From positions 1 to 64,000 of IMG/VR virus record IMGVR_UViG_3300009159_000049: a stretch of 64,000 nucleotides of DNA, one strand, 5' to 3'. The first letter of the stretch is position 1, and each line of letters opens with the position of its first letter. The DNA is from a virus. Both the position numbers and the translations under genes were made by a program. A model generated the notes under the pieces. The model made no database searches. It was not told where the DNA came from and saw only the letters and a program-made list of their open reading frames with translations. Below, one piece after another: positions 6,025-57,337 of the stretch.

Positions 6025-6578
6025 CCATACCTCCGATATCATTAGGACTTATCAAAGGCGCTGAGTGGCTCAAGGCTCTCAACGCTGAGATGTTCTCGTT
6101 TGGGCAGGCGCATGGCCATATGAACAAGAGTGCGGATCACGCTTCAGTGCACGCTCTTGCTGGCAGGCTTCAAGCAGGTCCCAGCGGTAACCTAGAACTA
6201 ACAGTCCCCTCTTCGCTTATCAAAGGTGTCTTTGACGCTCTAGATGAGCCAGGGGCTGAATTCGTTGTGCGTAACAATAGAACTGAGTGCGCTATCAAGG
6301 TAATGACCAAAGAAGAGGTAGATAAGCTAGGCGGAACTAGCCATATCACTGAGCGCGGTCACTCTTATCACTACACTCTTGGCCCTATAGTTGAGCTGCC
6401 TGCAACAGGTGAGTATGAAAAGCTGTGGGCTATTTCTATTAAGAGCGATGACCTAGAGTCCATCCGACGAAGCTACGGATTGGAGACGTCTCCACAACTG
6501 GGGTTCTACATTCCAGTAGGGTGTAAGAAGAAGAGAGTTACTGAGGATAATGAGGTGAGTAAGCTGTCAGTAGTGTAG
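6021..6578 (+). CDS. Hypothetical protein
   Basis: 185 residues, family not recognised. Residues 19-40 (LNAEMFSFGQAHGHMNKSAD) look like a diverged form of the tag seen in the neighbours. The rest is a mixed alpha/beta domain with TSHITERGHSYHYTLGP near the middle and ends in basic GCKKKRVTED. A palindrome of the dispersed family (6481-6494) lies in its coding sequence, read here as L-E-T-S-P, a different frame from most other copies. ATGA overlap with the upstream gene. Confidence 0.55.
   Translation: MTIPPISLGLIKGAEWLKALNAEMFSFGQAHGHMNKSADHASVHALAGRLQAGPSGNLELTVPSSLIKGVFDALDEPGAEFVVRNNRTECAIKVMTKEEVDKLGGTSHITERGHSYHYTLGPIVELPATGEYEKLWAISIKSDDLESIRRSYGLETSPQLGFYIPVGCKKKRVTEDNEVSKLSVV
6481..6494. 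repeat. Dispersed palindrome site 1
   Basis: TGGAGACGTCTCCA, perfect 14-base dyad inside the 6021 gene, reading frame L-E-T-S-P. Confidence 0.9.
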
Positions 6579-6641
6579 CCAGCCTTGCATATGGCTATGT
6601 TTATAGTTAGTATGTGCGCCAGACTATAATAAGAGGTAAGC

Positions 6642-7415
6642 ATGGGACTAGGCGATGAGCTTATGGCTGCAGGGGAAGCTCAGGCATTGTCAAAAGCCTG
6701 CGGTAACTGCAAGGTTGCTATTCTAGACAAGTCAGGTGTAAAGCAGAGGTGGCATGAGATTTGGGATAACGACCCACATATAGCCAAGCTTGGTGATAAG
6801 TTTACCAAGTCTATAGTTAACGGCCCAGGTCGTAGGGGTTACATAGAATCATTTAATAGTGATAGGTGGCTGTGGCGTAGATATAAGCCAATATCACCTA
6901 AGCTTTTCTTCTCAGACAATGAAAAGCAATTTGCAAATAGTATAGGCGAAGGCTTTGTAGTCATAGAACCTAACCTCAAGGTCAAAGCTGAGAGCGTTAA
7001 TAGGAACTGGGGCTGGAACAACTTCATATCTCTTATCAAGATGTTTCCTAATGTAAACTGGGTTCAGATAGGCCCAGATTCAACAAAAGTACTTCCAAAT
7101 GTAAAGCTTATAAAAGTCTCATCTCCAAGAATGGCTGCAGCTGCGCTTACTAAAGCTAAAGCGTTTGTAAGCCATGAAGGCGGTATGCACCATATGGCCG
7201 CAGCCGTAGGGCTTAAAGGTGTAGTTATTTACGGAGGATTTACCTCACCTATGGTAAGCGGTTATGATATTCATAACCATTTATTTGTACCTTCAAACTT
7301 AGGATGTGGTAGCATAAAGGCTTGTAATCATTGCAAGATTGCTATGGAGTCCATTTCACCTGAAATGGTTTCTATAGAGCTTATTAAAGCTCTTAGCTTT
7401 GCAAAGCATACTTAG
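6642..7415 (+). CDS. GT9-like (heptosyltransferase-fold) glycosyltransferase, short
   Basis: 257 residues; most GT9 enzymes are about 320-350, so it is compact. It opens with GLGDELMAAGEAQAL, the first glycine-rich loop of these GT-B enzymes. RNWGWNNFISLIK (121-133), VQIGPD (141-146) and SHEGGMHHMAAAVG (177-190) fit the donor-binding half that in LPS heptosyltransferases grips ADP-heptose. Donor and acceptor here are unknown. It heads a four-gene sugar cluster to 9956. SD AGAGG. Confidence 0.75.
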   Translation: MGLGDELMAAGEAQALSKACGNCKVAILDKSGVKQRWHEIWDNDPHIAKLGDKFTKSIVNGPGRRGYIESFNSDRWLWRRYKPISPKLFFSDNEKQFANSIGEGFVVIEPNLKVKAESVNRNWGWNNFISLIKMFPNVNWVQIGPDSTKVLPNVKLIKVSSPRMAAAALTKAKAFVSHEGGMHHMAAAVGLKGVVIYGGFTSPMVSGYDIHNHLFVPSNLGCGSIKACNHCKIAMESISPEMVSIELIKALSFAKHT

Positions 7416-7441
7416 TATTTGTAAATAATAGGAGTATTCAT

Positions 7442-8008: not shown

Positions 8009-8103
8009 CCCTAATTTGATTATGCACTTAACTTATAGCTTCTATTTATGCTATACATGTATGCTAATTCAGTAATGTAGACCATTTGCTCAAGGTACTA
8101 GTT

Positions 8104-8757: not shown

Positions 8758-8777
8758 ATACAAAGAAAGGCCTAACA

Positions 8778-10007: not shown

Positions 10008-10042
10008 GGATGACGCTATACGTCACCATCAGGAGCCTAGAT

Positions 10043-12301
10043 ATGCCGTTCAAATCTGATTCACAACGTAAATTATGTTACCTCCTCAAGGGTAAAGGCC
10101 AAGCTGGCTCATGGGATTGCGATGAGTGGTCTACCGCTACAGGTAAGAAAGACCTACCAGAGCATGTAGAAGATCAAGCAGAGAAGAAGGCTTTAGAAAC
10201 TAACAAGCTTAAGGGTGGAGTAGGCGATGACAAGAAGCCTTCAGACTTCTCTAAAGGAGTACTCGATGAAGGCATTGACGAAGAAAAAGAGCACACTAAC
10301 GACACTGGCATGGCTAAAGAGATAGCCATGGATCACTTAACTCAAGATCCTGAGTATTACACTAAGCTTAAGAAGGTTGAGAAGAGCAGTAGCCTTGCTG
10401 CAGTAAAATATTTGTACTCTATATGGGCAGGCTCGTCTCCTTTGAAAGCTGCTGCAGAGCGTACGCTACTGTCTAAGCTGTCTTCTGTTATTACCAGTCC
10501 TGGCAGAGGATCTGGTGATGAAGAAGAAACCGCCATCAACTCTGACTCCTCAGAGGGTATGCAGGTAACTAAGCCAATTAAGCCAGTCCCTGGAAAGATG
10601 AGTTTTAATCAAAAAGGTTTAAAGCCAGTTGCTCCGCTTGGTACTGCGCGTAATGCGTTAAGAAGAGTAACAGAGAAGAATCTAGGCTTTGATCCAGCTG
10701 GCGGGGTTAAGCAAGCACAGAGCATGGTCAAGTTATGGAAAAACATACCTGGATCCATGTACAGGTCTATGTTTGGTAATAAGCCTGCGATTCCTAGAGC
10801 GCAGCGCCCTAAGAAGGACTGGGAGCTTTCAGACTTCGCTGAAGAGTACCCAGAGCTTAAGAAGCTGAACTTTCAAGACCTATACAGGCAGGCAGAGCAG
10901 CGAGTGCTAAAGCGCATGGTAAAAGAGCATTTCCATGGCTCTCCAGAAAGCCTTTACGCTGGCGGCTTGGTTCTAGATAACAATGATAGGGGCCAATCAA
11001 CTAAGCAAGCTGAAGGGCCATCTTACATGCAACAGGTCTATCAAAACTTTGCTAACCCTGTAAAGTCAGTAGGAGAGTTTGGAAGTGCATTCCACAGCAT
11101 AGCTAACAATATAGACGATAGTAACAAATCAAGAGAAATGGCTTATAGGCAACGGTCTCAGCTAGGAAGGGCTAATGCAGCTCCTTCTGCGTCAGGTACA
11201 GCTCCTGCACGTAACTTTGACTTCTCTAGTATAAGCTCAAAAGCTAAGCTAGATCCTTCCATACTAGGTACTGCACCAGCTAGAGGCTTTGACTTTGCTA
11301 ACATGAAAAAGTCGTTGCAGAACACTGGCAGGCAGGTTGGAGCAGCCGCAACTTCAGAGGTAGAAAAATGGGTCAGGGCTCCAGGCTGGACCAGCCCAGG
11401 GGAAGTAACTAGGCGATACAATCAAGCTAAAGGTGCTGAGAAGGCTATGGGACAAGCCACTGATAGCGCAGGTAAGGTTATTTCTGGAGCTCAAAGGCTT
11501 GGAAAAAACTTCTTATCAGCAGGCGGAACGCTCATGGGTATGGGCAAGCAGTCTGACGTTGCTGCACCAAGTGCAGGATCAGCTCCAGCTCCTAAGGCTG
11601 CAGCGCCTGCAGCTTCTAGTCCTTCTCCTTCTTTAAAGTCTATAGGGTCAGGAGTAATGAACGCAGGGTCTACAGCTTTGCAGTCAATGTACAGCCCAGA
11701 GGCTTTTGAGCGCCTTCAGGCTATGAGTAATCGACCAGACCTTCCTGCTATGGCTAACAACGTAAGCAATTACTTTAAAGGAACTGGAGACGTCTCTAGT
11801 ACGATTAATGGATGGGCAGACAAAGCAATTGACTACGGGGTTGATAGTTACTTAGGTAAATCTTTAAACCCATTTACTATGGCCAAGGGTGTTATTGCTA
11901 AAAGTAAACTAAGGTCTATGAAGGACAACGCATCTAACTACGCAGGCGGAGTAGCTCAAGGTCTAGGTACTATGGCTACTAACATTGGCAACACAGTTAG
12001 GAAAGTTCCAGGCGTTGCGCCAGCTATTGACACTGTTAAAGATGTAGGTAGAGGCATGCAGCAAGGCATGTACGACTCTGCAGGTCAGTACGAAGCTGAG
12101 AGGCGCACCGCTGGATACGCTCTTCCAGTAGTTAACTTCATGCAGAACAACCCCTGGGCCAAGTACCTTTTAGGCGCTCTAGGCACAGGCGTAGCAGGCT
12201 ACGGGCTTCACAGCATGTTTGGTGGCCAGCAGAAGCAGCAGAACGGGCAAGCAGAAGGTGTATTACAAAACAGTTATAACCAAGGGTTGAAAGGGGCTTA
12301 A
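10043..12301 (+). CDS. Large DUF5661-like, virion-type protein
   Basis: 752 residues from ATG 10043 (SD CAGGAG); the longer frame from 10010 lacks a site. The N-terminus MPFKSDSQRKLCYLLKGKGQ with SWDCDEW is a short module common at the start of phage proteins. Residues about 70-110 (GVLDEGIDEEKEHTNDTGMAKEIAMDHL, continuing to DPEYYTKL) match the DUF5661 pattern as I recall it. The remainder is long, low-complexity, Ala/Ser/Gly/Pro-rich with GTAPAR repeats, and ends in a short hydrophobic segment (AKYLLGALGTGVAGYGL) near 727-745. Probably a structural or internal head protein; function unknown. Confidence 0.6.
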   Translation: MPFKSDSQRKLCYLLKGKGQAGSWDCDEWSTATGKKDLPEHVEDQAEKKALETNKLKGGVGDDKKPSDFSKGVLDEGIDEEKEHTNDTGMAKEIAMDHLTQDPEYYTKLKKVEKSSSLAAVKYLYSIWAGSSPLKAAAERTLLSKLSSVITSPGRGSGDEEETAINSDSSEGMQVTKPIKPVPGKMSFNQKGLKPVAPLGTARNALRRVTEKNLGFDPAGGVKQAQSMVKLWKNIPGSMYRSMFGNKPAIPRAQRPKKDWELSDFAEEYPELKKLNFQDLYRQAEQRVLKRMVKEHFHGSPESLYAGGLVLDNNDRGQSTKQAEGPSYMQQVYQNFANPVKSVGEFGSAFHSIANNIDDSNKSREMAYRQRSQLGRANAAPSASGTAPARNFDFSSISSKAKLDPSILGTAPARGFDFANMKKSLQNTGRQVGAAATSEVEKWVRAPGWTSPGEVTRRYNQAKGAEKAMGQATDSAGKVISGAQRLGKNFLSAGGTLMGMGKQSDVAAPSAGSAPAPKAAAPAASSPSPSLKSIGSGVMNAGSTALQSMYSPEAFERLQAMSNRPDLPAMANNVSNYFKGTGDVSSTINGWADKAIDYGVDSYLGKSLNPFTMAKGVIAKSKLRSMKDNASNYAGGVAQGLGTMATNIGNTVRKVPGVAPAIDTVKDVGRGMQQGMYDSAGQYEAERRTAGYALPVVNFMQNNPWAKYLLGALGTGVAGYGLHSMFGGQQKQQNGQAEGVLQNSYNQGLKGA
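11783..11800. repeat. Dispersed palindrome site 2 (one mismatch)
   Basis: ACTGGAGACGTCTCTAGT, an 18-base dyad with one mismatched pair, inside the 10043 gene (T-G-D-V-S-S). Confidence 0.75.
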
Positions 12302-12964: not shown

Positions 12965-13576
12965 ATGACTAATTTTATGCAAATGGCATCAGGCGGCGGT
13001 AGTAGTGCTGCTGAAAACGAAACGAGAGCTATAGCCGGTCTTCTTCTTGAGTTTAGTCATGCAATTAAGGGTGCAGCGCCTGCACACGTTGTTGAGGGTC
13101 AAGCTCTAGTTAGCAGTATAAAAGCAGGCAATGCTATAGTTTATGACTATGAGTCAAGATTGCACACTATATCTAGATTAGAAGCTCTCAAGTTTGGCTA
13201 TGCTCCTCCTGTGACCATAGAACAGAAGGCGGCAGCCCTTAAAAATGGTGGTCGCTTGCCCACTAGCACAATTAACTTTGGTAAAATTAAAAGTGAAGCC
13301 ATGTTTAAGGAGCTTAATCAATTTATTAGTGATTATAAAAGGAGCTACCCCATGCCAGCTGGGTATGATGGTATAAAGTCAAAGCTCACTGCAGACGTTG
13401 GACGTCTTAAAAACTTAAGGCAAAAGCTTGAGGCTTCTTTTACTGTACAAAGGGGAAGTAGCTCAGCTTCCACTCCAGCCTCCACCCCAGCTGCTGGAAC
13501 CAAGCCATCTAGCCTTAAGAAAAAATCTACTGGTAAAAGAGGTTCAGTGGCAAAACTTAAAAAGAAAAACAGATAG
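12965..13576 (+). CDS. Basic-tail family protein 2
   Basis: 203 residues, not recognised. Helical N-domain (residues 15-150), then a Ser/Thr/Pro/Ala linker (SSASTPASTPAAGTKPSS) and the basic end SVAKLKKKNR. The linker-plus-tail layout suggests a flexible C-terminal signal appended to a domain unrelated to its neighbours. SD GTGGAG in a half-palindrome-like AGTGGAGAC just upstream. Confidence 0.6.
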   Translation: MTNFMQMASGGGSSAAENETRAIAGLLLEFSHAIKGAAPAHVVEGQALVSSIKAGNAIVYDYESRLHTISRLEALKFGYAPPVTIEQKAAALKNGGRLPTSTINFGKIKSEAMFKELNQFISDYKRSYPMPAGYDGIKSKLTADVGRLKNLRQKLEASFTVQRGSSSASTPASTPAAGTKPSSLKKKSTGKRGSVAKLKKKNR

Positions 13577-13590
13577 TGGAGACGTCTCCA
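13577..13590. repeat. Dispersed palindrome site 3 (intergenic)
   Basis: TGGAGACGTCTCCA starting directly after the stop of the previous gene and ending directly before the AAGGAG ribosome site of the next. It could overlap translation control as well as being a protein-binding site. Confidence 0.9.
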
Positions 13591-13602
13591 AAGGAGTTAG
13601 TT

Positions 13603-13848
13603 ATGATGCTGCAGCTAGATCCTCCTATTCCAGTTATAACCATCAAAGGCAAGGGCATGGCTCATGTCATAATAGACTACAGCCAAGATCACGATCTTAT
13701 GTGGGTTGTGTTTCAAGATGACACAGGCGAGTGCTGGACTTGGCGTAACGCTGATGTAAGAGGTCAAGGTAATGCCACCCTAGGCAGGCCTGAACCAGTT
13801 GTATCTGCTAACAAGCAGTTCCTTAATATGCTTTTAAAGCAAGACTAG
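13603..13848 (+). CDS. Small conserved-type hypothetical protein
   Basis: 81 residues from ATG 13603 (AAGGAG at 13591-13596). The track-length frame starting at GTG 13576 would run through the palindrome and has no SD. Compact, with HDLMWVVFQDDTGECWTWRN in the middle, resembling small beta-rich phage proteins I have seen without assigned function. It sits between two basic-tail genes and the C39 peptidase. Confidence 0.6.
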   Translation: MMLQLDPPIPVITIKGKGMAHVIIDYSQDHDLMWVVFQDDTGECWTWRNADVRGQGNATLGRPEPVVSANKQFLNMLLKQD

Positions 13849-19055: not shown

Positions 19056-19069
19056 TGGAGACGTCTCCA
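19056..19069. repeat. Dispersed palindrome site 4 (intergenic)
   Basis: TGGAGACGTCTCCA, between the last basic-tail gene and phoH. Confidence 0.9.
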
Positions 19070-19123: not shown

Positions 19124-19774
19124 ATGGCCAAGTTGCCTAAGGATCTCAACCCCGTACTTTTACCCATTAACGAGGCACAAAAATTAGCAGAAAAGCTTTT
19201 TCCAAAAAAAGATATTCTGTTCCTAACAGGGCCTGCAGGGACAGGTAAGACACACCAAGCAGTAAAGATGGCCTTAACTTCTTTTTTAGGCGGTAAGGTC
19301 CGCCGTATGATACTTTCAAGACCTATGGTTGAGTGCGGTGAGAAGATGGGATTCTTGCCTGGCGACATAAATGACAAGCTAGCTCCTTGGGTTGCTCCTA
19401 TTGAGGACGTATTACGTAGAATCACCACTATCAATCCTAAAGAAGTTATGAAGTCTATGGAGATTATTCCTTTAGCAGTTATGAGAGGAAGAACTTTTGA
19501 TGACTGCGTTGCCATTCTCGATGAAGCTCAGAACTGCACGTGGGAGCAGCTCAAGCTATTCACTTCTAGGCTAGGTAAGAACGGCAAGCTAATCATTTGT
19601 GGTGATCCTGAGCAGAGCGATCTTAGAATAAGGAACTGCTTTGCTGAGTTCGCTTATGCTCTTGAAAATCTAGACTGTGTAGGTTATGTAGGTTTTGATG
19701 AGAGCATGATTGTGCGTCATCCTTCTCTTCAATCAATTATGACGGCTATTAGAAAAGCAGAGGCTAAGAGATGA
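19124..19774 (+). CDS. phoH: PhoH-like ATPase
   Basis: 216 residues, a normal single-domain length. Walker A GPAGTGKT at 36-43; RMILSRPMVECGEKMGFLPGD and DDCVAILDEAQNCTWEQLK (Walker B with the DEAQN signature) followed by KLIICGDPEQSD are diagnostic of the PhoH/SF1-like family common in phages. Exact role unclear; RNA helicase or ATPase activity is reported for relatives. Its stop overlaps the cupin start (ATGA). Confidence 0.9.
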   Translation: MAKLPKDLNPVLLPINEAQKLAEKLFPKKDILFLTGPAGTGKTHQAVKMALTSFLGGKVRRMILSRPMVECGEKMGFLPGDINDKLAPWVAPIEDVLRRITTINPKEVMKSMEIIPLAVMRGRTFDDCVAILDEAQNCTWEQLKLFTSRLGKNGKLIICGDPEQSDLRIRNCFAEFAYALENLDCVGYVGFDESMIVRHPSLQSIMTAIRKAEAKR

Positions 19775-23192: not shown

Positions 23193-23223
23193 AGGCCGGA
23201 GCATTATGCTCTGGCCTTTTTTT
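23193..23223 (+). terminator. Rho-independent terminator
   Basis: AGGCCGGAGC/GCTCTGGCCT stem with a 5-base loop and seven T. Followed by AGCTATCAG, which recurs after the next two terminators. Confidence 0.9.
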
Positions 23224-23244
23224 AGCTATCAGGAGGATACTCTT

Positions 23245-24018
23245 ATGAAGGGCACATTCACAGCTAGAGACGTAAGAGGCTCTAGCACCAAGGGAGCTAA
23301 GTATGTAAAGGAGTATAGGACATGGCAGAGAATAAACGCCAAGTGCTACAATCCTAACCACCATAGGTATGCTAACTACGGAGGCAGGGGTATTGGAGTA
23401 GGAGACTTGTATAGGTATAGCTTTCTAAACTTTCTTAACGAGGTTGGAGTGTGCCCAGAGCCCAAGACTGAATACAGCATAGAAAGAATAGACAATAACG
23501 AAGGGTATGTATGCGGCAACATGGAGTGGATAAAGATTCCACTTCAAGCTCTTAACAAGACCAGCAATCATATGGTTGAACACAACGGCGTGCAGCTTCC
23601 ATTGTCTGTGGTTTGCAAGGACTTGAATATAAACTACGACACAGCAGCTACTAGGCTTGCCAGAGGGTTTTCCTTAGAGGACGCCCTAAACCCAGAGCTT
23701 TTAGAGCACAAGTCTAGAGATTTAGTATATTTAGGAAAGCCGATGAAGCTTGGTGCTCTGGTAAAGCTACTAGGTTTAAACTATGACAGAGCCGTGTTTC
23801 TTTACAATCAAGGATACAGCGGAGATGAGATAGCCCTAAACCCAGTATCTTATATGGTACGTACTCATAAGACCTATGAGTACAACGGCAAGGACATGAC
23901 TGTGACGGATTGGGCTAAGTACCTTGGAATAAGCCGTACAACCGTAGTTACCAAACTTAACAAGGGTTACTCCATAGGGTTTATATGCGATACCTATCTA
24001 AATAAGCCTATAGACTAG
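23245..24018 (+). CDS. HNH homing endonuclease (NYGGRGI type)
   Basis: 257 residues from ATG 23245 (SD CAGGAGG); the longer frame begins inside the terminator. YANYGGRGIGV and SIERIDNNEGYVCGNMEW form the HNH-type catalytic region of phage free-standing homing endonucleases. The C-half carries helix-turn-helix-like repeats (LPLSVVCKDLNINYDTAATRL; MTVTDWAKYLGISRTTVVTKL) that would read the target. It lies between a terminator and promoter P2, splitting two expression cassettes, as expected for a mobile gene. Confidence 0.85.
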   Translation: MKGTFTARDVRGSSTKGAKYVKEYRTWQRINAKCYNPNHHRYANYGGRGIGVGDLYRYSFLNFLNEVGVCPEPKTEYSIERIDNNEGYVCGNMEWIKIPLQALNKTSNHMVEHNGVQLPLSVVCKDLNINYDTAATRLARGFSLEDALNPELLEHKSRDLVYLGKPMKLGALVKLLGLNYDRAVFLYNQGYSGDEIALNPVSYMVRTHKTYEYNGKDMTVTDWAKYLGISRTTVVTKLNKGYSIGFICDTYLNKPID

Positions 24019-24972: not shown

Positions 24973-27237
24973 TTACAGTTCACATGCGCCGCCGGTGCAA
25001 GCGTAGGTTTGAGACGACTCTGTATGGTCAGTCTTCTCGTACCTAGAGAGCTTAGCCCAGTCGATCTTTGGAAAAGTGTTTACCCTGCTTGTGTACTCAT
25101 TCTTATCTATCTCTTCGTATGGCGTTCCTGTGTAGGTGCCATTGTTCTTAGGTAAGAAGCTAATGCCAGAGATAGCATCAAAGTTACGATACACCCAATG
25201 TCCTGCATCTAGCCACTCGTTAGGCTCAAGATACACAGTAGCTGATACCGAGTGCTCAGCCCAGTTAAGCTTCCAAGTCATCCAGTTGTCTAGCTGCTCT
25301 AGTGCTGTTTGTTGATCCTTTGTAATAGCTCCTTCTGGCGATGCACATGGAAACTCAAAGCATACAAGCGACTGATCTTCAGGTGCTTGAATCCAAGGAA
25401 CTCCAGCGTCTCTTAGCATGTTAGCTACAGGGCTATCAGCTCTTTCTCTAACTCGTCTGATGTAATACTCAGAGAACCTAGCATGAATGCCAGAAGAGCA
25501 TCCAAATAAAACTGCACTGTCTCCAGATGGCTTAACACAAGTGTCTGCAGCTGCTCGGCCAATTCCAAACCTTTCAGCAAACTCTGTATTAGTTTTAGCT
25601 ACCACAGACCTTAGCTTTTTAAGGAGATCATCTCTGCCTTCAGAGCCAGGTCTTAGCAGTGGGCAGTCCATCTGTCCAGTGATGTCTACTCCTAGTAGCC
25701 TTTCTTCTTGGCAGTTATCTTTCCACTCTCTTCGAATGTACTTGAAGTCTGTCAGGCAGGCTTGCATAGTTCCAAAGATAGTAGCTATGCGTACTTTCTT
25801 TTTAAGAGTCTCAGCAGTGTCATCGTGTCTAGCGACCACGATAGACAAGTTACAAAACTGATAAGGTCTAAGAATAATTTCAGCACAAGGGTTAGTGCCG
25901 AAGTCTCTTGGCTGCCTTCTTTCAGGTAGAGTCCTAAGCACGCCATCCCTGTTGAAGATGCCACGCTCTCCTGACCCGCTCTTAGCTAAAGATAGCCACT
26001 CTTCCATAAACTCTATAGAGGTAGGCTTGCTATCGTATACGGCTGAGTTATTAGCCATAGTTCGATGTATACTGCTCTCCCACCAGTTTCCGCTCTTAGC
26101 CAGTCTCATGTCTTTAGAGTCAAGGTCGCTAAGCGAGATCTCACTAGCTCTTCTAACTCCACCTACTTGCACGATCTTTCCAGTCATGCAGGCTAGGTCA
26201 TGACAGTCTACATCGCTAAGTGACCGACCCTGCCTAGATAGAATAAGCGTCCTTGCAAACTGTAGCAGTGTTTTGAGAGGATCAGGACCGCTAGCCCTAC
26301 CTCCTTTAATGCTGAGTCTTGCTCCAGCTGGTCTGATCTTGCTGAAGTCAAACTCAATGTCTTTACCATTGAACCAAGCTTCCATACCTGCGTAGAGGGC
26401 ATCGCACCATCCTTCGGTTGTATCGATGATTCCCATCTTTGCTGGTGGCTTGCCAGTCTGTCTTTTTACAGCAGGCAGCTGCTCAACATACCGACGCTCT
26501 ACTGAGAAGCCAGCGCCAGTACCTTGCATGAGAATATAAAGTAACTCACTGAACGATCTGATGTCAGTGATTGGCATGTAGCTACAGTTGTATACTCCAA
26601 CGTGGCACCTATCTAATGCCTTTCCAGCCATCTGAATAACTCGCATTGCTGGAGTGGCGTCCATTCGCTGCAGATACTCTTTAAGTTCTTTGAACTCTTG
26701 CTTGGTAACCTTTTCAGCAAAGTCCTGCTTTGCAAAGAAACTCATTACTCGGTTTACGCATTCTCCCCAAGTTTCTCTTCTTCCAAGTTCTTCGTTCCAC
26801 TTTGAGAACTTGCTGATGAACTGGTAGTACTGAAGCGCAGATGGAAAGTAGTTGTTATCTTCATCCACCAGACGCCTCAGCTCTGGGTCTACTGGATGGT
26901 TTACTCTTTCTTGCTTTCTTTTTTCTTTAAATATGGTGTAGTGTTCAGCGCCTTCAAAGTACCCTAAAGCCCATAGCTGTTGAATTACCGTATGTTGAAG
27001 TGCTTCAACTTCTATAGGTTCTTCGTCAACCTTCTTGTTTAGGATGTTAGCAACGGCTTTAGAGACTTTAACTCCTGCAACTTGAGCTTCTTCATCTGTG
27101 CTTTGTAGTCCGTTTTTAAAGCATCTCTCAACGGCTGATGCAATCTTAGTGGCTTCAAACGCTACTACGTTTCCGTTCCTTTTCTTTACTTTCCTAGACT
27201 CTAAACTTAAAGACTTCTTAACTCCAGCAGTAACCAT
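24973..27237 (-). CDS. nrdJ: Class II (adenosylcobalamin-dependent) ribonucleoside-triphosphate reductase
   Basis: 754 residues, close to the roughly 740 of monomeric Lactobacillus-type RTPR. It makes deoxynucleotides using B12 instead of a separate radical subunit, so it works with or without oxygen. Residues about 16-105 form an ATP-cone regulatory domain. NPCAEI at 449-454 holds the thiyl cysteine (Cys451) and Glu453, with Cys462 eleven residues on, the spacing of the active-site pair; PSGDSAVLFGCSSGIH is the phosphate-binding region; the tail YACTGGACEL supplies the CxxxxC shuttle. GGAGG SD. It is a minus-strand gene ending at a bidirectional terminator. Confidence 0.92.
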   Translation of the reverse strand: MVTAGVKKSLSLESRKVKKRNGNVVAFEATKIASAVERCFKNGLQSTDEEAQVAGVKVSKAVANILNKKVDEEPIEVEALQHTVIQQLWALGYFEGAEHYTIFKEKRKQERVNHPVDPELRRLVDEDNNYFPSALQYYQFISKFSKWNEELGRRETWGECVNRVMSFFAKQDFAEKVTKQEFKELKEYLQRMDATPAMRVIQMAGKALDRCHVGVYNCSYMPITDIRSFSELLYILMQGTGAGFSVERRYVEQLPAVKRQTGKPPAKMGIIDTTEGWCDALYAGMEAWFNGKDIEFDFSKIRPAGARLSIKGGRASGPDPLKTLLQFARTLILSRQGRSLSDVDCHDLACMTGKIVQVGGVRRASEISLSDLDSKDMRLAKSGNWWESSIHRTMANNSAVYDSKPTSIEFMEEWLSLAKSGSGERGIFNRDGVLRTLPERRQPRDFGTNPCAEIILRPYQFCNLSIVVARHDDTAETLKKKVRIATIFGTMQACLTDFKYIRREWKDNCQEERLLGVDITGQMDCPLLRPGSEGRDDLLKKLRSVVAKTNTEFAERFGIGRAAADTCVKPSGDSAVLFGCSSGIHARFSEYYIRRVRERADSPVANMLRDAGVPWIQAPEDQSLVCFEFPCASPEGAITKDQQTALEQLDNWMTWKLNWAEHSVSATVYLEPNEWLDAGHWVYRNFDAISGISFLPKNNGTYTGTPYEEIDKNEYTSRVNTFPKIDWAKLSRYEKTDHTESSQTYACTGGACEL

Positions 27238-27355
27238 TGGTTATAACCTCCGTGTTTGTTAATATGTCCATCCTTAAACATAATTTCATCCAAACGGCAT
27301 CCAACTATGGCTTGGTATGCCAAGAGTTGGTACTATCGTGATGGAGGACCTTCTA

Positions 27356-35851: not shown

Positions 35852-37345
35852 GTGACCCAAGAGTACAACAGTGGAGACGTCTCCACAAAACAAGCCGATC
35901 TAAATCCTAATATCTCTCTGCAGCCACACCAGCAGGGAGTAGTGGACAAGGTACAGAAACAGCTAGACACAACTGGTAAAGCTCGCATGCTGCTTTACCA
36001 TAGTCTTGGCTCTGGTAAGACTTTAAGCGGATTAGCTTCAGCAGACGAGTCAAAGATACCTTACACAGCTGTAGTTCCTGCTGCCTTACGTAACAACTTA
36101 CGCAAGGAGCAAGAGAAGTTTATAGACCAAGACACTGCAACACCTAGCAGCGTCATGAGTCATACCGGCCTAGCACTTGGAAAACCAATAGATAACCCAG
36201 GCTCTATTCTAATAGACGAAGCTCACAGATTTAGAAACCCAGCGTCCGCTCAAGCTAAGAACCTTATGGAGGCTGCTAGAAAAGCAAAACAGGTTGTGAT
36301 GCTTACCGGCACTCCAGTGGTAAATGACCCTAGCGACTTTACATTGCCGTATAACATACTTACAGGAGAGGACGTTAGTAAGAATGAGTTTGAAGACACT
36401 TATGTAAAAGACACAGCCAGTCCTACTTGGTACAACAGACTTCTAAACTCAGATCCAGCAGAGCCAGAGATAATTAATCAGCAGCAACTTAAAGACAAGC
36501 TAAAAGGTAAGGTAGACTACTTTGCACCGCTAGCTCCCAAGGCTGAAGTTAATCGCAAAGACGTAGTCGTAGAAATGAACCGAGATCAGACAGACCTTAA
36601 CAGCCATATAATGGGTCAGCTTCCTACTGTACTTAGGTGGAAGCTAGAGAGGAACTACCCTCTAACAAAAGATGAAGTAAGCAGAATGTCTAGCTTTATG
36701 ACAGGGCTTAGGCAGGTAGGGCTTTCAACACTTCCGTTCATGAAAGAAAACAAAGACATTCAAAAAGCTTTCGATGATTCTCCAAAGCTTACTACAGCGT
36801 TTGGTAATCTTAAGGGGCTTTTAGACAAAGACCCTAAAGGCAAAGCTCTTATCTTCTCCAACTTTATCGATGCAGGGTTGTCGCCTTACCAAGCCGCTTT
36901 AGACAGAGCAGGTATTCCTGCAGCTTCGTTTACAGGTGCACTATCAGATAAAGAGCGTAAAAGACTGGTTGACGACTACAACAGCGATAAGCTTAAGGTA
37001 GCTTTGCTAGGTCCAGCAGGAACAGAAGGTTTGTCGTTTAAAGGTACCAAGCTAGTTCAACTGCTTGACCCTCACTGGAATACAGCTAGAAGCAGCCAGA
37101 GCGAAGGCCGAGCTCTTAGGTTTGACAGCCATGACCATCTTGATCCAGAAGACAGAAAAGTTTCAATAGAACGTTACATAGCTAGGACTGCTCCAGGAAG
37201 ACTAAGATCTTTGCTGCGTCATATAGGTATAGGTGCAGACCCTATCCCTGCAACAGATGACTACTTGATCAACGCTGCCAATCGTAAGCAGAAACTTAAT
37301 GAAAAATTCCTAAATGTACTTAAACAAATTGGAAGTAAAGAGTAA
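35852..37345 (+). CDS. SF2 (SNF2/RapA-like) helicase or translocase
   Basis: 497 residues from GTG 35852, with GGAG in the polymerase gene. Walker A GSGKT at 53-57, DEAH at 122-125 (ILIDEAHRFRNP), TGTP at 152-155, and the second lobe with GTEGLSFKGTKLVQLLDP then QSEGRALR, an arginine-finger motif VI. Lobes and spacing match SNF2-type ATPases that move on duplex DNA. It sits between the two parts of the RNA polymerase, so a RapA-like or transcript-termination/recycling role is the natural guess. The dispersed palindrome at 35871 lies at codons 6-12 (N-S-G-D-V-S-T). Confidence 0.88.
   Translation: MTQEYNSGDVSTKQADLNPNISLQPHQQGVVDKVQKQLDTTGKARMLLYHSLGSGKTLSGLASADESKIPYTAVVPAALRNNLRKEQEKFIDQDTATPSSVMSHTGLALGKPIDNPGSILIDEAHRFRNPASAQAKNLMEAARKAKQVVMLTGTPVVNDPSDFTLPYNILTGEDVSKNEFEDTYVKDTASPTWYNRLLNSDPAEPEIINQQQLKDKLKGKVDYFAPLAPKAEVNRKDVVVEMNRDQTDLNSHIMGQLPTVLRWKLERNYPLTKDEVSRMSSFMTGLRQVGLSTLPFMKENKDIQKAFDDSPKLTTAFGNLKGLLDKDPKGKALIFSNFIDAGLSPYQAALDRAGIPAASFTGALSDKERKRLVDDYNSDKLKVALLGPAGTEGLSFKGTKLVQLLDPHWNTARSSQSEGRALRFDSHDHLDPEDRKVSIERYIARTAPGRLRSLLRHIGIGADPIPATDDYLINAANRKQKLNEKFLNVLKQIGSKE
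35871..35886. repeat. Dispersed palindrome site 6
   Basis: GTGGAGACGTCTCCAC, perfect 16-base dyad, 20 bases inside the helicase gene and just past the polymerase gene. Confidence 0.92.
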
Positions 37346-39646: not shown

Positions 39647-41566
39647 ATGCTTAAGACCACCATAGGTCAGATCATGGTTAACGACGCCCTTCCTGCAGAG
39701 CTAAGAGATTACACCAGATCTTTAGATTCAAAAGCTTCTGCTTCGCTTATGCAGATCATAGCTCAAAATCATCCAGAGAAGTACAAAGACATATCAAAGA
39801 AGCTTTTTGATATCGGTAGAGATGTGTCTTATAACAGTGGAGGATTTTCATTCGGACTAAAAGACCTAAGGGAGTCTAATCACTCTATAGACGCTAAGGC
39901 TAAGCTAAAGCTAGCTATAGATGGAATAATGAGAAACTCTAGAATAGATGAAGACACTAAAAATAGTAGTATGATTGAGCTGCTTAACAATGCTCAAAGC
40001 GGTATGGAAAAAGGCATATTTGATGACTCACTACGAGAAGGTAACCAGCTAGCTAGACAGATTCAGTCAGGGTCGCGTGGTAAGCCGATGAACCTTAAAA
40101 GCCTTAGAGGTGGAGATCTACTCTACACCGATCATCACGATAATGCTATTCCCATTCCTGTGTTCAACTCATACTCTAAAGGCTTAAATCCTGCTGAGTA
40201 CTTTGCTGGAGCATTCGGTGCCCGTAAAGGAGTTGCTGATACTAAGTTCGCAACAATGGACGCTGGATTCTTTTCAAAACAGCTAAATCAGATAGGTCAT
40301 AGAATGGTTGTCGTAGGTGACGACGCTGACGATCCTAAACGGTTTGAAAGCCGTGGACTTCCTGTAGACATAGAGGATGATGATAACGAAGGCGCGCTTC
40401 TAGCTATGGCAGCTGGGGGCTATGCTAGAAACACCGTGCTTACACCTAGAGTTATAAAAGACTTAAAGGCTAACAACGTAAAAAGGCTCTTAGTAAGAAG
40501 CCCTATAGCAACTGGAGCTCCTGACGGAGGGCTATACTCTAGAGATTTAGGCATAAGGGAAAGAGGCAGCTTTGCTCCAATAGGCGACGCCATAGGTATT
40601 GCCGCTATGCAAGCTCTATCCGAGCCTATTTCTCAAGGTCAGCTAAGCTCTAAGCACACAGGTGGAGTAGCTGGAGCAGCTGGGGCAGTCTCAGGCTTTA
40701 AACACTTAAACCAGCTTGTTCAATCACCTAAGCAGTCTCCTTACTGGGCAGCTCATGCTCAGCGTGATGGTAAGGTTACTGGAATTAAAGAAGCTCCTAC
40801 AGGTGGCACATTCATAGCGATAGACGGAGTTGAGCACCACGTAAACCCTGGAGTAAACTTGTCTGTGAAGCTTAACGATGTAGTAGAGGCTGGGGACACA
40901 TTGTCTGACGGTATTGCCAACCCTGCTATGCTTACTAGGTTCAAAGGAATAGGTGAAGGTAGGCGTCAGTTTGTACAAGCCTTTAAAGGAGCCATGAAAG
41001 GCGCAGGCATGTCTGGAAACAGACGCAACATAGAAGTCATGTCGAAAGGCCTTATCAATCACGTCAAGATGAGCGATGAGTACAAGCAGTACGCTCCAGA
41101 CGACGTCGTACCTTATGACTCGGTAGAACACGATTGGGAACCTAGAGAAGGACATACCATAGTAAATCCAAGAGAAGCTATTGGTAAATACCTTGAGCAG
41201 CCCGTGCTGCACTACAGTATAGGGACTCCTATCAAGCCTTCTATGATAAAAGACTTAAATGAGTTTGGTGTCTCTAAGATTACTGTTCACAAAGACCCTG
41301 CTCCGTTTGAAGCTCACTTCGTTAGGGGTTTGGAAAACCTTCAGCATGACCCAGACTGGATGACTAGAATGCTTGGAAGCAATCTTAGAAAGTCAACTTT
41401 AAATGCCGTGCATCGTGGTGCGGTAAGCGACGAGAAGGGCACGTCCTATGTGCCGTCATTAGCCAAGGCTGTAGACTTTGGTAAGAGCGGTCCAGTAAAA
41501 GGATTTAAAGTAGAAAAACCTAAGAGTGAAATACTTAAACCAATTGAAAATGACGGAGTTTTATAA
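39647..41566 (+). CDS. RNA polymerase beta-prime C-terminal half
   Basis: 639 residues. It begins MLKTTIGQIMVNDALP, matching the bacterial TTVGR...VPKGLP region near E. coli beta-prime 620. GLNPAEYFAGAFGARKGVADTKFATMDAGFFSKQL (bridge helix end and trigger loop) follows at about 180-215, and GDAIGIAAMQALSEPISQ with a Gly/Ala strand later, as in bacterial beta-prime. So this is the remaining half of the subunit started at 31392. The split lies close to that of cyanobacterial RpoC1/RpoC2. SD AGGAG. Next gene overlaps its stop by one base. Confidence 0.92.
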   Translation: MLKTTIGQIMVNDALPAELRDYTRSLDSKASASLMQIIAQNHPEKYKDISKKLFDIGRDVSYNSGGFSFGLKDLRESNHSIDAKAKLKLAIDGIMRNSRIDEDTKNSSMIELLNNAQSGMEKGIFDDSLREGNQLARQIQSGSRGKPMNLKSLRGGDLLYTDHHDNAIPIPVFNSYSKGLNPAEYFAGAFGARKGVADTKFATMDAGFFSKQLNQIGHRMVVVGDDADDPKRFESRGLPVDIEDDDNEGALLAMAAGGYARNTVLTPRVIKDLKANNVKRLLVRSPIATGAPDGGLYSRDLGIRERGSFAPIGDAIGIAAMQALSEPISQGQLSSKHTGGVAGAAGAVSGFKHLNQLVQSPKQSPYWAAHAQRDGKVTGIKEAPTGGTFIAIDGVEHHVNPGVNLSVKLNDVVEAGDTLSDGIANPAMLTRFKGIGEGRRQFVQAFKGAMKGAGMSGNRRNIEVMSKGLINHVKMSDEYKQYAPDDVVPYDSVEHDWEPREGHTIVNPREAIGKYLEQPVLHYSIGTPIKPSMIKDLNEFGVSKITVHKDPAPFEAHFVRGLENLQHDPDWMTRMLGSNLRKSTLNAVHRGAVSDEKGTSYVPSLAKAVDFGKSGPVKGFKVEKPKSEILKPIENDGVL

Positions 41567-41922
41567 TGAGCGACTTTATACACAAGTGGGCTAACATGGG
41601 TCAGCCTAGTAAGCCTTCAGCTTTAAAGCCATTGACTGCTCCCACCATTCCTTCTGCAGGGGCTTCACCATCTTTATCTGCAGCAAAATCAGAAAAACCA
41701 TCACCTCAAGATGTAAAGAACGTTAACACTTCGCCAGCTCTTATGGCCCCTTCTACGATGCTGCCGCCTGTGTCAAATCAAGCAGCAGCAGTGGCTCAAA
41801 GTAGTGGAGACGTCTCCACTAACACCCAAGGTAATAATTATGCTAAGATGGCAGAGGTCATGCTTGAGCTTATGAAGAGCGGAAGCTTAACTGAAAATAT
41901 TCTCAGTATGCGGCCTAGATAA
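41566..41922 (+). CDS. Proline/serine-rich small protein
   Basis: 118 residues, low complexity (Pro, Ser, Ala, Lys) from about 12 to 95, short helix at the end (YAKMAEVMLELMKSGSL). No recognisable domain. Starts on the last base of the beta-prime stop codon. Contains dispersed palindrome site 7, the longest copy, in frame S-G-D-V-S-T. Confidence 0.5.
   Translation: MSDFIHKWANMGQPSKPSALKPLTAPTIPSAGASPSLSAAKSEKPSPQDVKNVNTSPALMAPSTMLPPVSNQAAAVAQSSGDVSTNTQGNNYAKMAEVMLELMKSGSLTENILSMRPR
41802..41821. repeat. Dispersed palindrome site 7 (longest, 20 bases)
   Basis: TAGTGGAGACGTCTCCACTA, a perfect 20-base dyad. Confidence 0.93.
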
Positions 41923-48024: not shown

Positions 48025-49461
48025 ATGATGATCAAAATTATAGCTCCGAACTCTCAGGACTTCGGAGATTCAGTAAGCTCCCTAATTAAGGTATCCTCTA
48101 AAGGCTTAGTAGGATCAGACCTGTCATCGTTTATTAAGAGAGCTGGAGACGGCGCTGCCCATCTTCTAAAAGGAATAGACTTCAAGCCTGGTGAGCAACC
48201 TATACACATGATAGCTATAGGAGCTACAGAAGCTTACGGACCAAATAGAAACGGTGATGGTTTCAAAGAAGCCACATGCCGCAAGTACCATGACACGTTC
48301 GTAAAGCACGCTAGATGGTACAGAAACCATAAGAATAAAGACCCACAACAAAGCTATGGCTTAGTTAAAGCTTCCATGTTCAATGACAAGATGAAGAGAG
48401 TCGAACTAATAGTTGCACTTAATTCAACTAAAGAAGCTGCAGAACGAAACAAAGGTCTAGTAGCTGACAAGGAAATGCAGAAGATTGCTTCTGGAGATGA
48501 TAACTGGGGCGTCAGCATGGCGTGCCGAGTAGCTCATGACGTCTGTTCAGGCTGCGGTAACAAAGCTAGAAACAGAGACGAATACTGTACTGAAGACATG
48601 TGCAAGTACGGCGGCTGCCGAGGTAACCTTACCAAGGTTGCTTCAGACGGACACGTATTGCATGTAGATAACCCCAATCCAACTTGGTTCGATATTAGCG
48701 ACGTTTATAGACCAGCAGACCGCATAGCTTGGGTAGTAGGTCATTATAAAGCAGCTTCAGGCGTGTATGTAGCTGGCGGAGCTGAACTAGCTGAACTTGC
48801 TGGCGTCGGCGCTCCAGTAGGAGTGCTAGGTGGAGACCTTTCTGCTGACATCACGAAAATGGTCGAAGCAGCTGTTAAGATGGCTGAGCTTGAAAAGTCT
48901 GCAAGTGCTTACAGCCCAGTGCTTCTAGCTACTATCAATGCTAGAGTTAGACCGTTACCGTTCTGGAAACAAGCAGCAATGGGCGGCTCCTTCCCTTGGT
49001 CAGCATGTGCTAAGCAGGGGATAATTATTTCTTTGGAAGACTGGTTGCTAGCTAAGGGGCATGACAAACTTGCCAGCGAAGTAAAGAAATACATGCCAGG
49101 AGTCTTCAGTAGGATCATTGGAGACGTCTCCACTATTGAAAAGCTTGCTGACAGGAACTCAGACCCTTCATTAAGTATTTCTACAGAAAAACAAAACATG
49201 GAAGCTTACAAGTGTGCAGCTGCCCACTCTGTTAGTAACAAGAGCCTAGAGAGCAGCGTACACATGGCTGTTATTTCAGGGTTTAGGCTTCCTAACATTA
49301 TTAAGCAAATGGATAAAACAGCTGAAACATCAGATAAATATGAAGCATTAGCTAAAGCTTATGCAGTTCATCAGCTTCAGTGGATCAAGGCGGCATCAGC
49401 GAACGAAACGGCAGAACACAACTATCGAAGGGCTGTTCTTGCTTACAACGTCATCTGCTAA
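48025..49461 (+). CDS. Prohead (capsid maturation) protease-like protein
   Basis: 478 residues. GATEAYGPNRNGDGF (67-80), YHDTFVKHARWYRNH (89-102), then a QSYGLVKASM strand and RVELIVALN follow the layout of herpes/HK97-type head maturation proteases (His in the helix, Ser near WGVSMACRV at 161-169). A zinc-finger-like CSGCGNKARNRDEYC...MCKYGGC (174-198) is inserted after the catalytic Ser. Position directly upstream of the scaffold-like and capsid genes supports the call. Catalytic residues are inferred, not proven. Palindrome site 8 lies in the gene. Confidence 0.65.
   Translation: MMIKIIAPNSQDFGDSVSSLIKVSSKGLVGSDLSSFIKRAGDGAAHLLKGIDFKPGEQPIHMIAIGATEAYGPNRNGDGFKEATCRKYHDTFVKHARWYRNHKNKDPQQSYGLVKASMFNDKMKRVELIVALNSTKEAAERNKGLVADKEMQKIASGDDNWGVSMACRVAHDVCSGCGNKARNRDEYCTEDMCKYGGCRGNLTKVASDGHVLHVDNPNPTWFDISDVYRPADRIAWVVGHYKAASGVYVAGGAELAELAGVGAPVGVLGGDLSADITKMVEAAVKMAELEKSASAYSPVLLATINARVRPLPFWKQAAMGGSFPWSACAKQGIIISLEDWLLAKGHDKLASEVKKYMPGVFSRIIGDVSTIEKLADRNSDPSLSISTEKQNMEAYKCAAAHSVSNKSLESSVHMAVISGFRLPNIIKQMDKTAETSDKYEALAKAYAVHQLQWIKAASANETAEHNYRRAVLAYNVIC
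49119..49132. repeat. Dispersed palindrome site 8
   Basis: TGGAGACGTCTCCA in the protease-like gene (I-G-D-V-S-T). Confidence 0.9.
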
Positions 49462-53674: not shown

Positions 53675-53704
53675 AAAGCCCTGGATTAGTCCAGGGCTTT
53701 TTTT
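53675..53704 (+). terminator. Rho-independent terminator
   Basis: AAAGCCCTGGA-TTAG-TCCAGGGCTTT plus T-run; a perfect 11-bp stem. Confidence 0.93.
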
Positions 53705-53789
53705 ATTTAATACCACTGGAAATTGAATTCAATACTCGCTATTCTATGGGCGTGGCTGTAACCCATTACGAATAAGAAAGAAGGACTTT

Positions 53790-55049: not shown

Positions 55050-55066
55050 GGCATTTGGAGGATGAC

Positions 55067-56002
55067 ATGGACCCGTCAATCATTGAGTGCTCAGATCAGT
55101 TAGTACTACGCCCAAGCATTACTAGGGTTGACGGAAGGCCTATACTAAGTAAAACACAGGCACTGGTTACATCACAAGGTATGGCGCCAGTAATAGAAAT
55201 GGTTCTTAGAGACTTAGAAGGTAGACCTATAAACTTCGAGTCATGCGGATTTGAGAACTATTCAAGCTCTGTAAGTTCTTCAAGCAGCTCTGCGCTTCAA
55301 GGTAAAGTGCTACTTAAAGCCAGAGAAGTATTCGACACTAATTCTGTAATTCCAGTAGTAGATATAGAAGGTGTTTTTGTAAACGCTGCAGCCGGCGTTG
55401 TAAGAGCCAAGATTCCAGTAACCGCAACTGATCTAAATGGAATATTTCAAGCTAACTGGGGAGTAATGTCAGCCTCAAGTGAGCTAATTCATTCATCGCA
55501 GTTTTATCTAGTTGTAGAAAAAAGCCAGTTCTCATCTTCTGGAAGCGACAACGGCAGGGGTCTTCCATCCATAAACGAAGTAAGGTTGTATCTCAGGGAT
55601 AGTTCCCCAGAGGACAATCCACTTCTAAATACCTTAGAGTTCGACCTTCCTGAGATATGCGAAGCAATGATACTTTGCGTTCAGCATTGGAATACAATGC
55701 AGCCTAGGGTTAGAGTTACGTTCAGCACTAAGAACTTTCCAAAACCATCTGTAATGCTTAACGGTATCATGGGTGAGCTTTACTTAGCAGCTGCAAAGCA
55801 CTACAGAAGAAACCAATTAAACTATACTGCAGGCGGTTTAGCTATAGACGACAAGAACAAATCGCAAGAGTACGAGACTATAGGCGACAGGATGCTTCAA
55901 GATTATCTCAAGTGGGTAAAGATGACAAAGATTCAGATCAACAAAGAAGCCTGGGATGGCTCTTTTGGCTCTACCTATGATGGGTTTGGAAGGTACAGGT
56001 GA
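55067..56002 (+). CDS. Head-tail connector (neck) protein, putative
   Basis: 311 residues from ATG 55067 (GGAGG; TTG 55055 lies within the SD). N-domain beta-rich with a Ser run (SSSVSSSSSSALQ). The helical C-half (PEICEAMILCVQHWNTMQPR) is reminiscent of neck adaptors. Sits right after the sugar gene and before HNH and the tail genes. Not recognised with certainty. Confidence 0.5.
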   Translation: MDPSIIECSDQLVLRPSITRVDGRPILSKTQALVTSQGMAPVIEMVLRDLEGRPINFESCGFENYSSSVSSSSSSALQGKVLLKAREVFDTNSVIPVVDIEGVFVNAAAGVVRAKIPVTATDLNGIFQANWGVMSASSELIHSSQFYLVVEKSQFSSSGSDNGRGLPSINEVRLYLRDSSPEDNPLLNTLEFDLPEICEAMILCVQHWNTMQPRVRVTFSTKNFPKPSVMLNGIMGELYLAAAKHYRRNQLNYTAGGLAIDDKNKSQEYETIGDRMLQDYLKWVKMTKIQINKEAWDGSFGSTYDGFGRYR

Positions 56003-56349
56003 TAACTTTAAAATCAGTAGGCATAGCTACTCTAGACACACTTAGCTGGATTCTAGGCGTCAGGTCAGGTAAGTGGCCAGCCAAACGTGATAACTTTATA
56101 AAGGGTAAGAAGTGCGCAGCTTGTGGAGCATCTAAAAACCTTGTTGTGCATCATAAAATACCAGTACAAGTAGATCCAACTAAGGAGCTTGACGATGATA
56201 ACTTTATCGTTCTGTGCTCTAAGCCTAGTAACTGCCACTTTGTTTTTGGCCACCTTCATTCTTACCTGTCTTGGAATACTAATGTAGTTAAGGATTGCGA
56301 AGACCACTTTAATAAGGTGAGGAATCGACCATGCCTATTGAAGGAATAG
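55999..56349 (+). CDS. HNH nuclease in the neck region
   Basis: 116 residues from GTG 55999 overlapping the preceding stop. KKCAACGASKNLVVHHKIPV and DDDNFIVLCSKPSNCHFVFGH give zinc cysteines (39, 42, 73, 79), His51/His52 and Asn68, the HNH pattern. HNH nucleases next to packaging or head genes help some phages (HK97 gp74 style) cut DNA during packaging, but a homing role is also possible. Overlaps the next gene by 19 bases. Confidence 0.75.
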   Translation: MITLKSVGIATLDTLSWILGVRSGKWPAKRDNFIKGKKCAACGASKNLVVHHKIPVQVDPTKELDDDNFIVLCSKPSNCHFVFGHLHSYLSWNTNVVKDCEDHFNKVRNRPCLLKE

Positions 56350-57143
56350 AGCCGTTTGAAAGGACTTCAATAAGGTTTGCTCCATCAGGAGGTACCGTAG
56401 TTGAATGGGAACTTAACCACCTGTTCACTGATAGGGGCCCTTACACATTCACACTACAAGGCTCAAGCTCGTCTGCAACAACAGCTAACTTTATATCAAT
56501 AGGGCTACCAGCTGTTAATACTTGGTTTCTTGTAGACGACGAGGCTAGGATTTTTGGTAAAGAGCTAGATTGGTTCTATAGAGTAAAATTAGTAACTTAC
56601 TCAGGTACATACTATTCACCAGTAATCTCAGCTGATTCAGGAGTTGACTACAGAACTTGGAGAATAGTTAGAGAAATACTTAGAAAAGAAACACTTAGAA
56701 TGAAGCGGTTCGTTTCTGTTCCGGACGCTGTTTTATTTAAAAGAAAACGTATCGGTACAAAATGCACTAGGTGCGCCGACCCTCTTACGGATGAACCTAT
56801 TGATGGCAGCTGCCAAGTGTGTCTAGGCACAGGCCTAGTTGCTGGTTATTACGCCGCTGTACCTATACTTGTAGATATGCAGGTTTCTAATGAAGTTGAA
56901 AAACAAGATGATCAAAAGGTTGGAACTTCAAGCCAAGCAGCTACTCAAAACTGCAGAATAATAAGCGATGCCGTTCTTAGCAGCCAAGATGTAATCTGGG
57001 ATAAGGGCAGCGGAAGAAGATACATAGTGCATGAGTACACGGAATTGATTACCATAAGGGGGTACAATATCGTGGCTGCAATTAATCTTAGAATGGCACC
57101 GTTTTCTGATGTTGTTTACACTATACAGGAGAATGGTATATGA
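56331..57143 (+). CDS. Neck/tail-completion-like protein with zinc ribbon
   Basis: 270 residues. N-domain beta-rich (SIRFAPSGGTVVEWELNHLF), then KCTRCADPLTDEPIDGSCQVC (about 144-164), a two-CxxC zinc ribbon. C-half again beta-rich. Location between connector and sheath suggests a neck part. Zinc ribbons are unusual in such proteins. It overlaps the 57140 gene by 4 bases (ATGA). Confidence 0.5.
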   Translation: MPIEGIEPFERTSIRFAPSGGTVVEWELNHLFTDRGPYTFTLQGSSSSATTANFISIGLPAVNTWFLVDDEARIFGKELDWFYRVKLVTYSGTYYSPVISADSGVDYRTWRIVREILRKETLRMKRFVSVPDAVLFKRKRIGTKCTRCADPLTDEPIDGSCQVCLGTGLVAGYYAAVPILVDMQVSNEVEKQDDQKVGTSSQAATQNCRIISDAVLSSQDVIWDKGSGRRYIVHEYTELITIRGYNIVAAINLRMAPFSDVVYTIQENGI

Positions 57144-57337
57144 TGGAAAAAAGAGCTCCTAGAATGATGGAATCAAACTCATTGTTTGGTCATGAGTCTA
57201 GCTTTGATAAGATTGCATCACATGTAAAGATGCTCAGTGGAAACGTCTCCACTAAAAAGAATGAGCTTCCACCTATGATCCAGCCAACACCGTACAAGCA
57301 GCCTGACTTTAGTTTTATGAATAAAGGCAATAAGTAA
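57140..57337 (+). CDS. Short Lys/Pro-rich protein
   Basis: 65 residues, no domain; polar and probably unstructured. Contains dispersed palindrome site 9 (S-G-N-V-S-T). ATGA start on the previous stop and its own stop overlaps the next ATG, so it is translated as part of the tail operon. Confidence 0.5.
   Translation: MMEKRAPRMMESNSLFGHESSFDKIASHVKMLSGNVSTKKNELPPMIQPTPYKQPDFSFMNKGNK
57236..57253. repeat. Dispersed palindrome site 9 (one mismatch)
   Basis: AGTGGAAACGTCTCCACT, an 18-base dyad with one A instead of G. Confidence 0.75.

Follow-up and report, generated by a model that had tools for sequence, protein, structure and literature searches.

A dispersed palindrome selected as DNA, and possibly a chromosome-organising site, in large phages encoding their own RNA polymerase

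Introduction

The SlmA sites of Escherichia coli nucleoid occlusion consist of a 12-bp palindrome, GTGAGTACTCAC, present in ~50 dispersed copies that lie chiefly in coding regions, and gene regulation is not their main role (PMC3116907). A second set in bacterial chromosomes, matS, comprises 23 copies of a short near-palindrome within one domain, bound by the DNA-organising protein MatP (PMC3116907). The operators of KorB in plasmid RK2 are palindromic and are bound by a ParB-family protein with long-range action (PMC11790492); they are cited in PMC3235114 as dispersed sites, along with centromere-like sites at several places in the linear phage-plasmid N15. Among phages, the L5 stoperators, known from temperate phages, are asymmetric sites that a repressor monomer recognises (PMC4557955), and the genome of phage tf carries 14 nicks at TACT/RTGMC (PMC3517423).

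Here we describe a palindrome in a large phage that, like the SlmA sites, is short, dispersed and mostly located in coding DNA. SlmA sites differ in lying on a bacterial chromosome at much wider spacing, and no SlmA-like protein was recognised in the phage; matS differs in its sequence and its confinement to Ter, and no MatP was found in the phage. With ParABS and KorB the phage shares a palindromic multi-copy site, but not the ParB_N and ParA domains, while N15 differs in being a plasmid prophage with partition proteins. It also has only a few centromere sites. Mycobacteriophage L5 likewise carries many copies of one word across its genome, but the sites described here are symmetric and mostly intragenic, and neither an integrase nor an HTH_3 repressor was found above cut-off. 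The nick motifs of tf, T5 and phiKMV are dispersed and sequence-specific in lytic phages, as here, yet they are asymmetric and act on a single strand, whereas the present sites are palindromic. In the literature we found no description of dispersed DNA-selected palindromes in apparently virulent large phages, nor of a phage system with regular sites whose word is replaced between relatives. Dispersed palindromic sites as such are thus already known; their regular use in an apparently virulent large phage and the replacement of the word appear to be new.

Results

The window, i.e. the whole 64,000-nucleotide stretch that was analysed, opens a virus record of 92,955 bases, of which it covers the first 64 kb. 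The virus is a tailed phage, with tail-collar proteins and a terminase-like ATPase, and one of its proteins, 31% identical to a protein of phage Arash, is by size and place probably the major capsid protein. It encodes an RNA polymerase in pieces:

31392 to 35849, plus strand: RNA polymerase beta / partial beta-prime fusion (Pfam Rpb2_6, 2.2e-49; Rpb1_2, 3e-21)
39647 to 41566, plus strand: second RNA polymerase beta-prime piece, Rpb1 domain 5 (Pfam, 2.5e-18)

The virus also encodes a SNF2/DEAD-type helicase (35852-37345), an SMC/SbcC-like ATPase and a sigma factor (L014 10254-11081). The same virus is also represented by a longer record (G001, IMGVR_UViG_3300027782_000032, 190,371 bases), whose RNA polymerase is 100% identical. 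G001 holds a second protein with sigma region-4 (157023-157736) and two ORFs (136070-136552 and 158521-159105) that by eye resemble RNA polymerase alpha-CTD domains, a likeness that no profile bore out. Relatives were sought with the fusion at 31392-35849. The polymerase is mostly 52-57% identical to that of numerous environmental viruses (up to 205 kb), and ~30% identical to that of Salmonella phage Arash and Vibrio phages D69, D148 and D181, all cultured.

The window contains seven exact copies of the 12-mer GGAGACGTCTCC (starts 6482, 13578, 19057, 27770, 35873, 41806 and 49120) and two with one mismatch (11786 and 57239), all checked against the letters. With up to two mismatches, nine were found against 1.08 expected, none of 100 shuffles having as many as nine, and GGAGACGTCTCC was the top 12-base palindrome of the window with seven copies, each of the others listed having one. 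The nine sites are as follows (G numbers denote viral records):

Site 1, 6481 to 6494: exact TGGAGACGTCTCCA, in ORF 6021-6578, frame L-E-T-S-P; homologous copies in G002, G003, G004 and G006
Site 2, 11785 to 11798: one mismatch, TGGAGACGTCTCTA, in ORF 10010-12301 as T-G-D-V-S
Site 3, 13577 to 13590: exact, at the junction of ORFs 12965-13576 and 13576-13848; homologous copies in G002, G003 and G004
Site 4, 19056 to 19069: exact, intergenic, directly upstream of PhoH-like ORF 19124-19774; homologous copies in G002, G003, G004 and G006
Site 5, 27767 to 27784: AGTGGAGACGTCTCCACT, in ORF 27317-28636 as S-G-D-V-S-T; homologous copies in G002, G003 and G006
Site 6, 35872 to 35885: exact, close to the start of helicase ORF 35852-37345; homologous copies in G002 and G006, with no copy at that position in G003
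Site 7, 41802 to 41821: exact, with the longest dyad, TAGTGGAGACGTCTCCACTA (20 bp), in ORF 41566-41922
Site 8, 49119 to 49132: exact, in ORF 48025-49461 as I-G-D-V-S-T; homologous copies in G002, G003 and G006
Site 9, 57236 to 57253: one mismatch, AGTGGAAACGTCTCCACT, in ORF 57140-57337 as S-G-N-V-S-T; homologous copies in G002, G003 and G006

This re-scan returned all nine positions of an earlier sequence-only reading of the window and its placing of the longest dyad, 20 bases, at 41802-41821. That reading had put six copies in frame as S/I/T-G-D/N-V-S and one as L-E-T-S-P, which stands, and two between genes: the copy at 19057 is indeed intergenic, and the one at 13578 sits where a short ORF begins with GTG.

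Beyond the window the word remains well above chance. In the 92,955-base record GGAGACGTCTCC occurs 11 times exactly and twice with one mismatch, and G001 holds 23 exact and four near copies of the longer form TGGAGACGTCTCCA; at up to one mismatch, 26 were observed in G001 against 0.07 expected under an order-3 Markov model, and the palindrome scan gave a Poisson log10 P of about -80 for GGAGACGTCTCC. The consensus exceeds the 12-mer first noted: a near-invariant TGGAGACGTCTCCA is flanked by AG...CT, making ~18 bp, and in a position table of 122 distinct copies the information is symmetric and almost confined to these ~18 bp, with the consensus AGTGGAGACGTCTCCACT.

A pattern scan of viral contigs, with counts over whole records, found TGGAGACGTCTCCA in multiple copies in G001-G008 and G015 (9-27 per record when as many as two mismatches are allowed), the remaining records mostly having a single copy, as expected by chance. 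We call lineage A the group formed by G001 with G002, G003, G004, G006, G007 and G015, which have many proteins in common, mostly at 35-95% identity. The word was above chance in none of 31 records whose RNA polymerase is ~40-57% identical, and a near-DNA search in named phages gave no match.

Across the 190-kb genome there is roughly one site per 6-8 kb, and gaps of 5-10 kb make up 50-68% of all gaps in G001, G003 and G006. The coefficient of variation of the spacing is 0.51 in G001 (P 0.0003), 0.57 in G003 (P 0.003) and 0.44 in G006 (P <0.0001), against ~0.94 for random placement, and these P values are not independent, since the sites and spacings are partly inherited in common. In lineages B, C and D, which carry other words (see below), it is 0.60-0.79 and not significantly even. 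Even spacing is therefore significant solely in lineage A.

Several further features of these genomes were recorded. A B12-dependent ribonucleotide reductase gene (24973-27237, minus strand) holds a one-mismatch copy of the palindrome in G003, G004 and G006. Five ORFs of differing sequence between 12325 and 19052 end in a common C-terminal tail KLKK(K)NR (e.g. VSKLKKKNR), which occurs in this virus and is absent from the other genomes that were checked. Three ORFs (1858, 4184 and 4846), and G002 too, have MNRLEKAAAFGxMMGK as a motif at the N-terminus, where it may serve as a signal for packaging or targeting. A 61-residue ORF of G001 (152096-152281, L176), on the strand opposite most genes, resembles by eye a CsrA carbon-storage regulator and has relatives in G003, G004, G015, G021 and G033. 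Finally, a promoter-like box, CTTAATyCAACCnATAAGTGCGTCATAAT, is repeated in G001 at 106.6-109.4 kb (L174) and 74.5-76.3 kb (L172), often directly after terminators ending TTTTTTTAGCTATC; it is present in all lineage-A genomes, and the exact GCGTCATAAT occurs eight times in G001.

We then asked what selection maintains. The 124 copies in the seven lineage-A records fall into all three reading frames (53, 39 and 15) or between genes (17), ~86% being intragenic. In five comparisons of G001 genes with an exact site, codons for the same amino acid were identical at 0.91-0.95 within sites, versus 0.42-0.47 in the remainder of the same genes. Selection thus acts on the DNA, as the sequence-only reading had proposed, because synonymous codons are frozen within sites and all frames as well as intergenic positions are used. 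Nor are the sites lost in relatives: many copies sit at homologous positions, with 15 of 22 mappable G001 sites keeping their place in G003, as do 13 of 23 in G006, the others having been gained, lost or moved. The outcomes that the sequence-only reading had named as refuting it (chance-level counts elsewhere, loss in relatives, conservation of the peptide only) were each looked for, and none was seen.

More distant relatives with other palindromes emerged from a scan unbiased as to the word. The palindrome AAAGATATCTTT has 14 exact copies in G021 and 13 in G045 (23 and 22 with one mismatch) and 14 copies in G040; TTGATATCAA, whose best extended form is ATTGATATCAAT, occurs 21 times in G025; and TCTCGCGCGAGA, six times in G046, is probably another dispersed palindrome of this type. 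Copies of AAAGATATCTTT and TCTCGCGCGAGA use all frames, and those in G025 use two frames and intergenic positions. In a small sample, 15 of 17 same-residue codons in AAAGATATCTTT sites agree between G021 and G045, versus 62% elsewhere. The palindromes of three lineages have GACGTC or GATATC cores, and lineages with different words differ in G+C content (~43% and ~60%). Among the matches listed in collection scans for CAAAGATATCTTTG and CATTGATATCAATG, most were single copies. The same unbiased scan found no strong palindrome in G022, G026, G033, G050 or Arash, so the function would be dispensable there or served otherwise. One candidate was discarded: TTCGGAnnnTCCGAA in G032 is a coding repeat, since all six copies lie in a single reading frame, in which two ORFs by the contig ends repeat an S-E-T-P peptide (1443-2111 and 203004-203435, where TTCGGAAACTCCGAA occurs six times in frame).

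The search for a binding protein yielded no convincing candidate. Pfam and PHROGs scans of most early and many window proteins showed no ParB, Xre or SlmA-like candidate, although the early proteins were mostly scanned as sets, so a divergent binder could escape; the dimeric DNA-binding gene that the sequence-only reading expected elsewhere in the genome was thus not recognised among the proteins scanned. The ParB domain PF02195 was found in 0 of 5 genomes (control, 10 of 14) and ParA PF13614 in 0 of 5 (control, 14 of 14). No integrase (PF00589) was found in the five genomes, with the proviso that an unusual integrase could escape. The search for an Xre repressor gave no HTH_3 above cut-off, where an unusual repressor could likewise escape. 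The genes common to lineages A, B and C but absent from palindrome-free relatives (cupins, a glycosyltransferase and a 132-residue unknown protein) were rejected, none being DNA-binding in look. The phrog_624 'DNA binding protein' was rejected as well, and so was the protein with sigma region-4, neither having a link to the site. Some 50 families of unknown lineage-A genes lack a homologue in the ten other relatives. A single lineage-A-only protein has helix-turn-helix (HTH) repeats:

23206 to 24018, plus strand: weak candidate for a DNA-binding protein, of HNH type and carrying three HTH-like repeats

This ORF matches HNH endonucleases in 608 phage records, which argued against it as the binder, and its low-confidence structural model matched no fold significantly, showing just a faint likeness to the DNA-binding domain of I-TevI; it is more likely a homing-type gene than the binder of the site.

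Discussion

A long, strictly symmetric word that is selected as DNA points to a symmetric, sequence-reading protein, and from the letters we consider it very probable that such a protein recognises the palindrome. A symmetric site for a DNA-binding protein, the best fit in the sequence-only reading, thus remains the best (predicted) reading for an 18-bp word of this kind. In the mechanism that we propose, TGGAGACGTCTCCA, extended to AGTGGAGACGTCTCCACT, would be the recognition site of a symmetric, probably dimeric, sequence-specific protein, conceivably a lineage-specific phage protein; once bound, it would anchor, bridge or organise the phage chromosome for compaction, for anchoring to a structure or for protection, in a mode of action like that at SlmA or MatP sites, and the few promoter-adjacent copies may add a secondary regulatory role. 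We lean tentatively, at somewhat short of even confidence, towards this picture of sites for a dimeric protein that organises or anchors the whole phage genome, with regulation as a secondary function. The likeness to SlmA and matS is drawn because most copies are intragenic without promoter-like surroundings and because spacing is even in lineage A. We therefore rank organisation first, global regulation second and a host-encoded binder third.

That the sites are operators scattered over the genome for a global transcription regulator of the phage, which would block or tune RNA polymerase genome-wide in the manner of stoperators or KorB, strikes us as somewhat unlikely, though it has real points in its favour. 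Sites lie directly upstream of the repeated promoter-like box at three places in G001 and two in G008, mostly right after a terminator, and intergenic copies are ~3-fold enriched (17 of 124, versus 4-5% non-coding DNA). Yet only three of ~10 boxes in G001 have a site and copies elsewhere carry no information outside the 18 bp, so most sites are not parts of promoters, and ~86% are intragenic. The promoter-adjacent copies in G001 and G008 suggest that the protein may regulate as well. There is no sign of lysogeny, as the searches for integrase, ParB and an Xre repressor gave nothing above cut-off. Two guesses of the sequence-only reading, a partition-type site and a lysogeny stoperator, are weakened because these searches, and the one for ParA, came back negative.

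We regard it as improbable that the phage exploits a host chromosome protein (ParB, Noc or SlmA-like), with different hosts accounting for different words. The switch of word between lineages of ~43% and ~60% G+C would fit, as would the finding that no common phage gene tracks the word; against it, the 16-base form GTGGAGACGTCTCCAC had 28 single matches in unrelated phyla, about the chance level, and multiple copies in none of 85k bacterial and archaeal genomes, from which the host is perhaps absent.

Sites for cutting, nicking, packaging or recombination, comparable to the nick motifs of phages tf, T5 and phiKMV, seem less probable still. Dispersed sequence-specific nick motifs do exist in lytic phages (tf; PMC3517423) and the virus encodes an SMC/SbcC-like ATPase, but the described motifs are asymmetric and one-stranded, and cutting at a perfect palindrome would affect both strands. 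A methyltransferase target, or a modification or self-marking site, is very unlikely: the GACGTC or GATATC cores in three lineages are suggestive, but the cores alone are not strongly enriched and the conserved span of 14-18 bp exceeds that of an ordinary modification site, which weakens another guess of the earlier reading. Methylase sites are far shorter.

An RNA hairpin working in transcripts, AGUGGAG-ACGU-CUCCACU, has hardly any likelihood left. By its sequence the RNA could pair as a 7-bp stem closed by a loop of 4 bases; however, the 45 distinct imperfect copies show 35 stem changes on one side only, of which 24 destroy pairing, none of 12 double-mismatch sites is compensatory, and the loop itself is conserved and symmetric, so stem changes do not keep base pairing. 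The window has no Rfam match. Peptide selection for S-G-D-V-S-T, the frame of 53 of the 124 copies, is rejected with near certainty on frame use and the codon test, given two further frames, intergenic copies and frozen synonymous positions.

Returning to genome organisation, large phages with their own multisubunit RNA polymerase may, and we put this forward cautiously as a possibility somewhat weaker than the organising role itself, possess an undescribed chromosome-organising system in which a phage protein binds a palindromic anchor site every several kb and its specificity has switched between lineages (GGAGACGTCTCC, AAAGATATCTTT, ATTGATATCAAT and others). Exact bait sequences are now given for three or four lineages and can serve to capture the binding protein. 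It thereby becomes possible to test whether replicating phage DNA is organised by the phage at regular intervals. The lineage-specific words provide a natural experiment in which a DNA-binding protein and ~25 scattered sites would have changed together.
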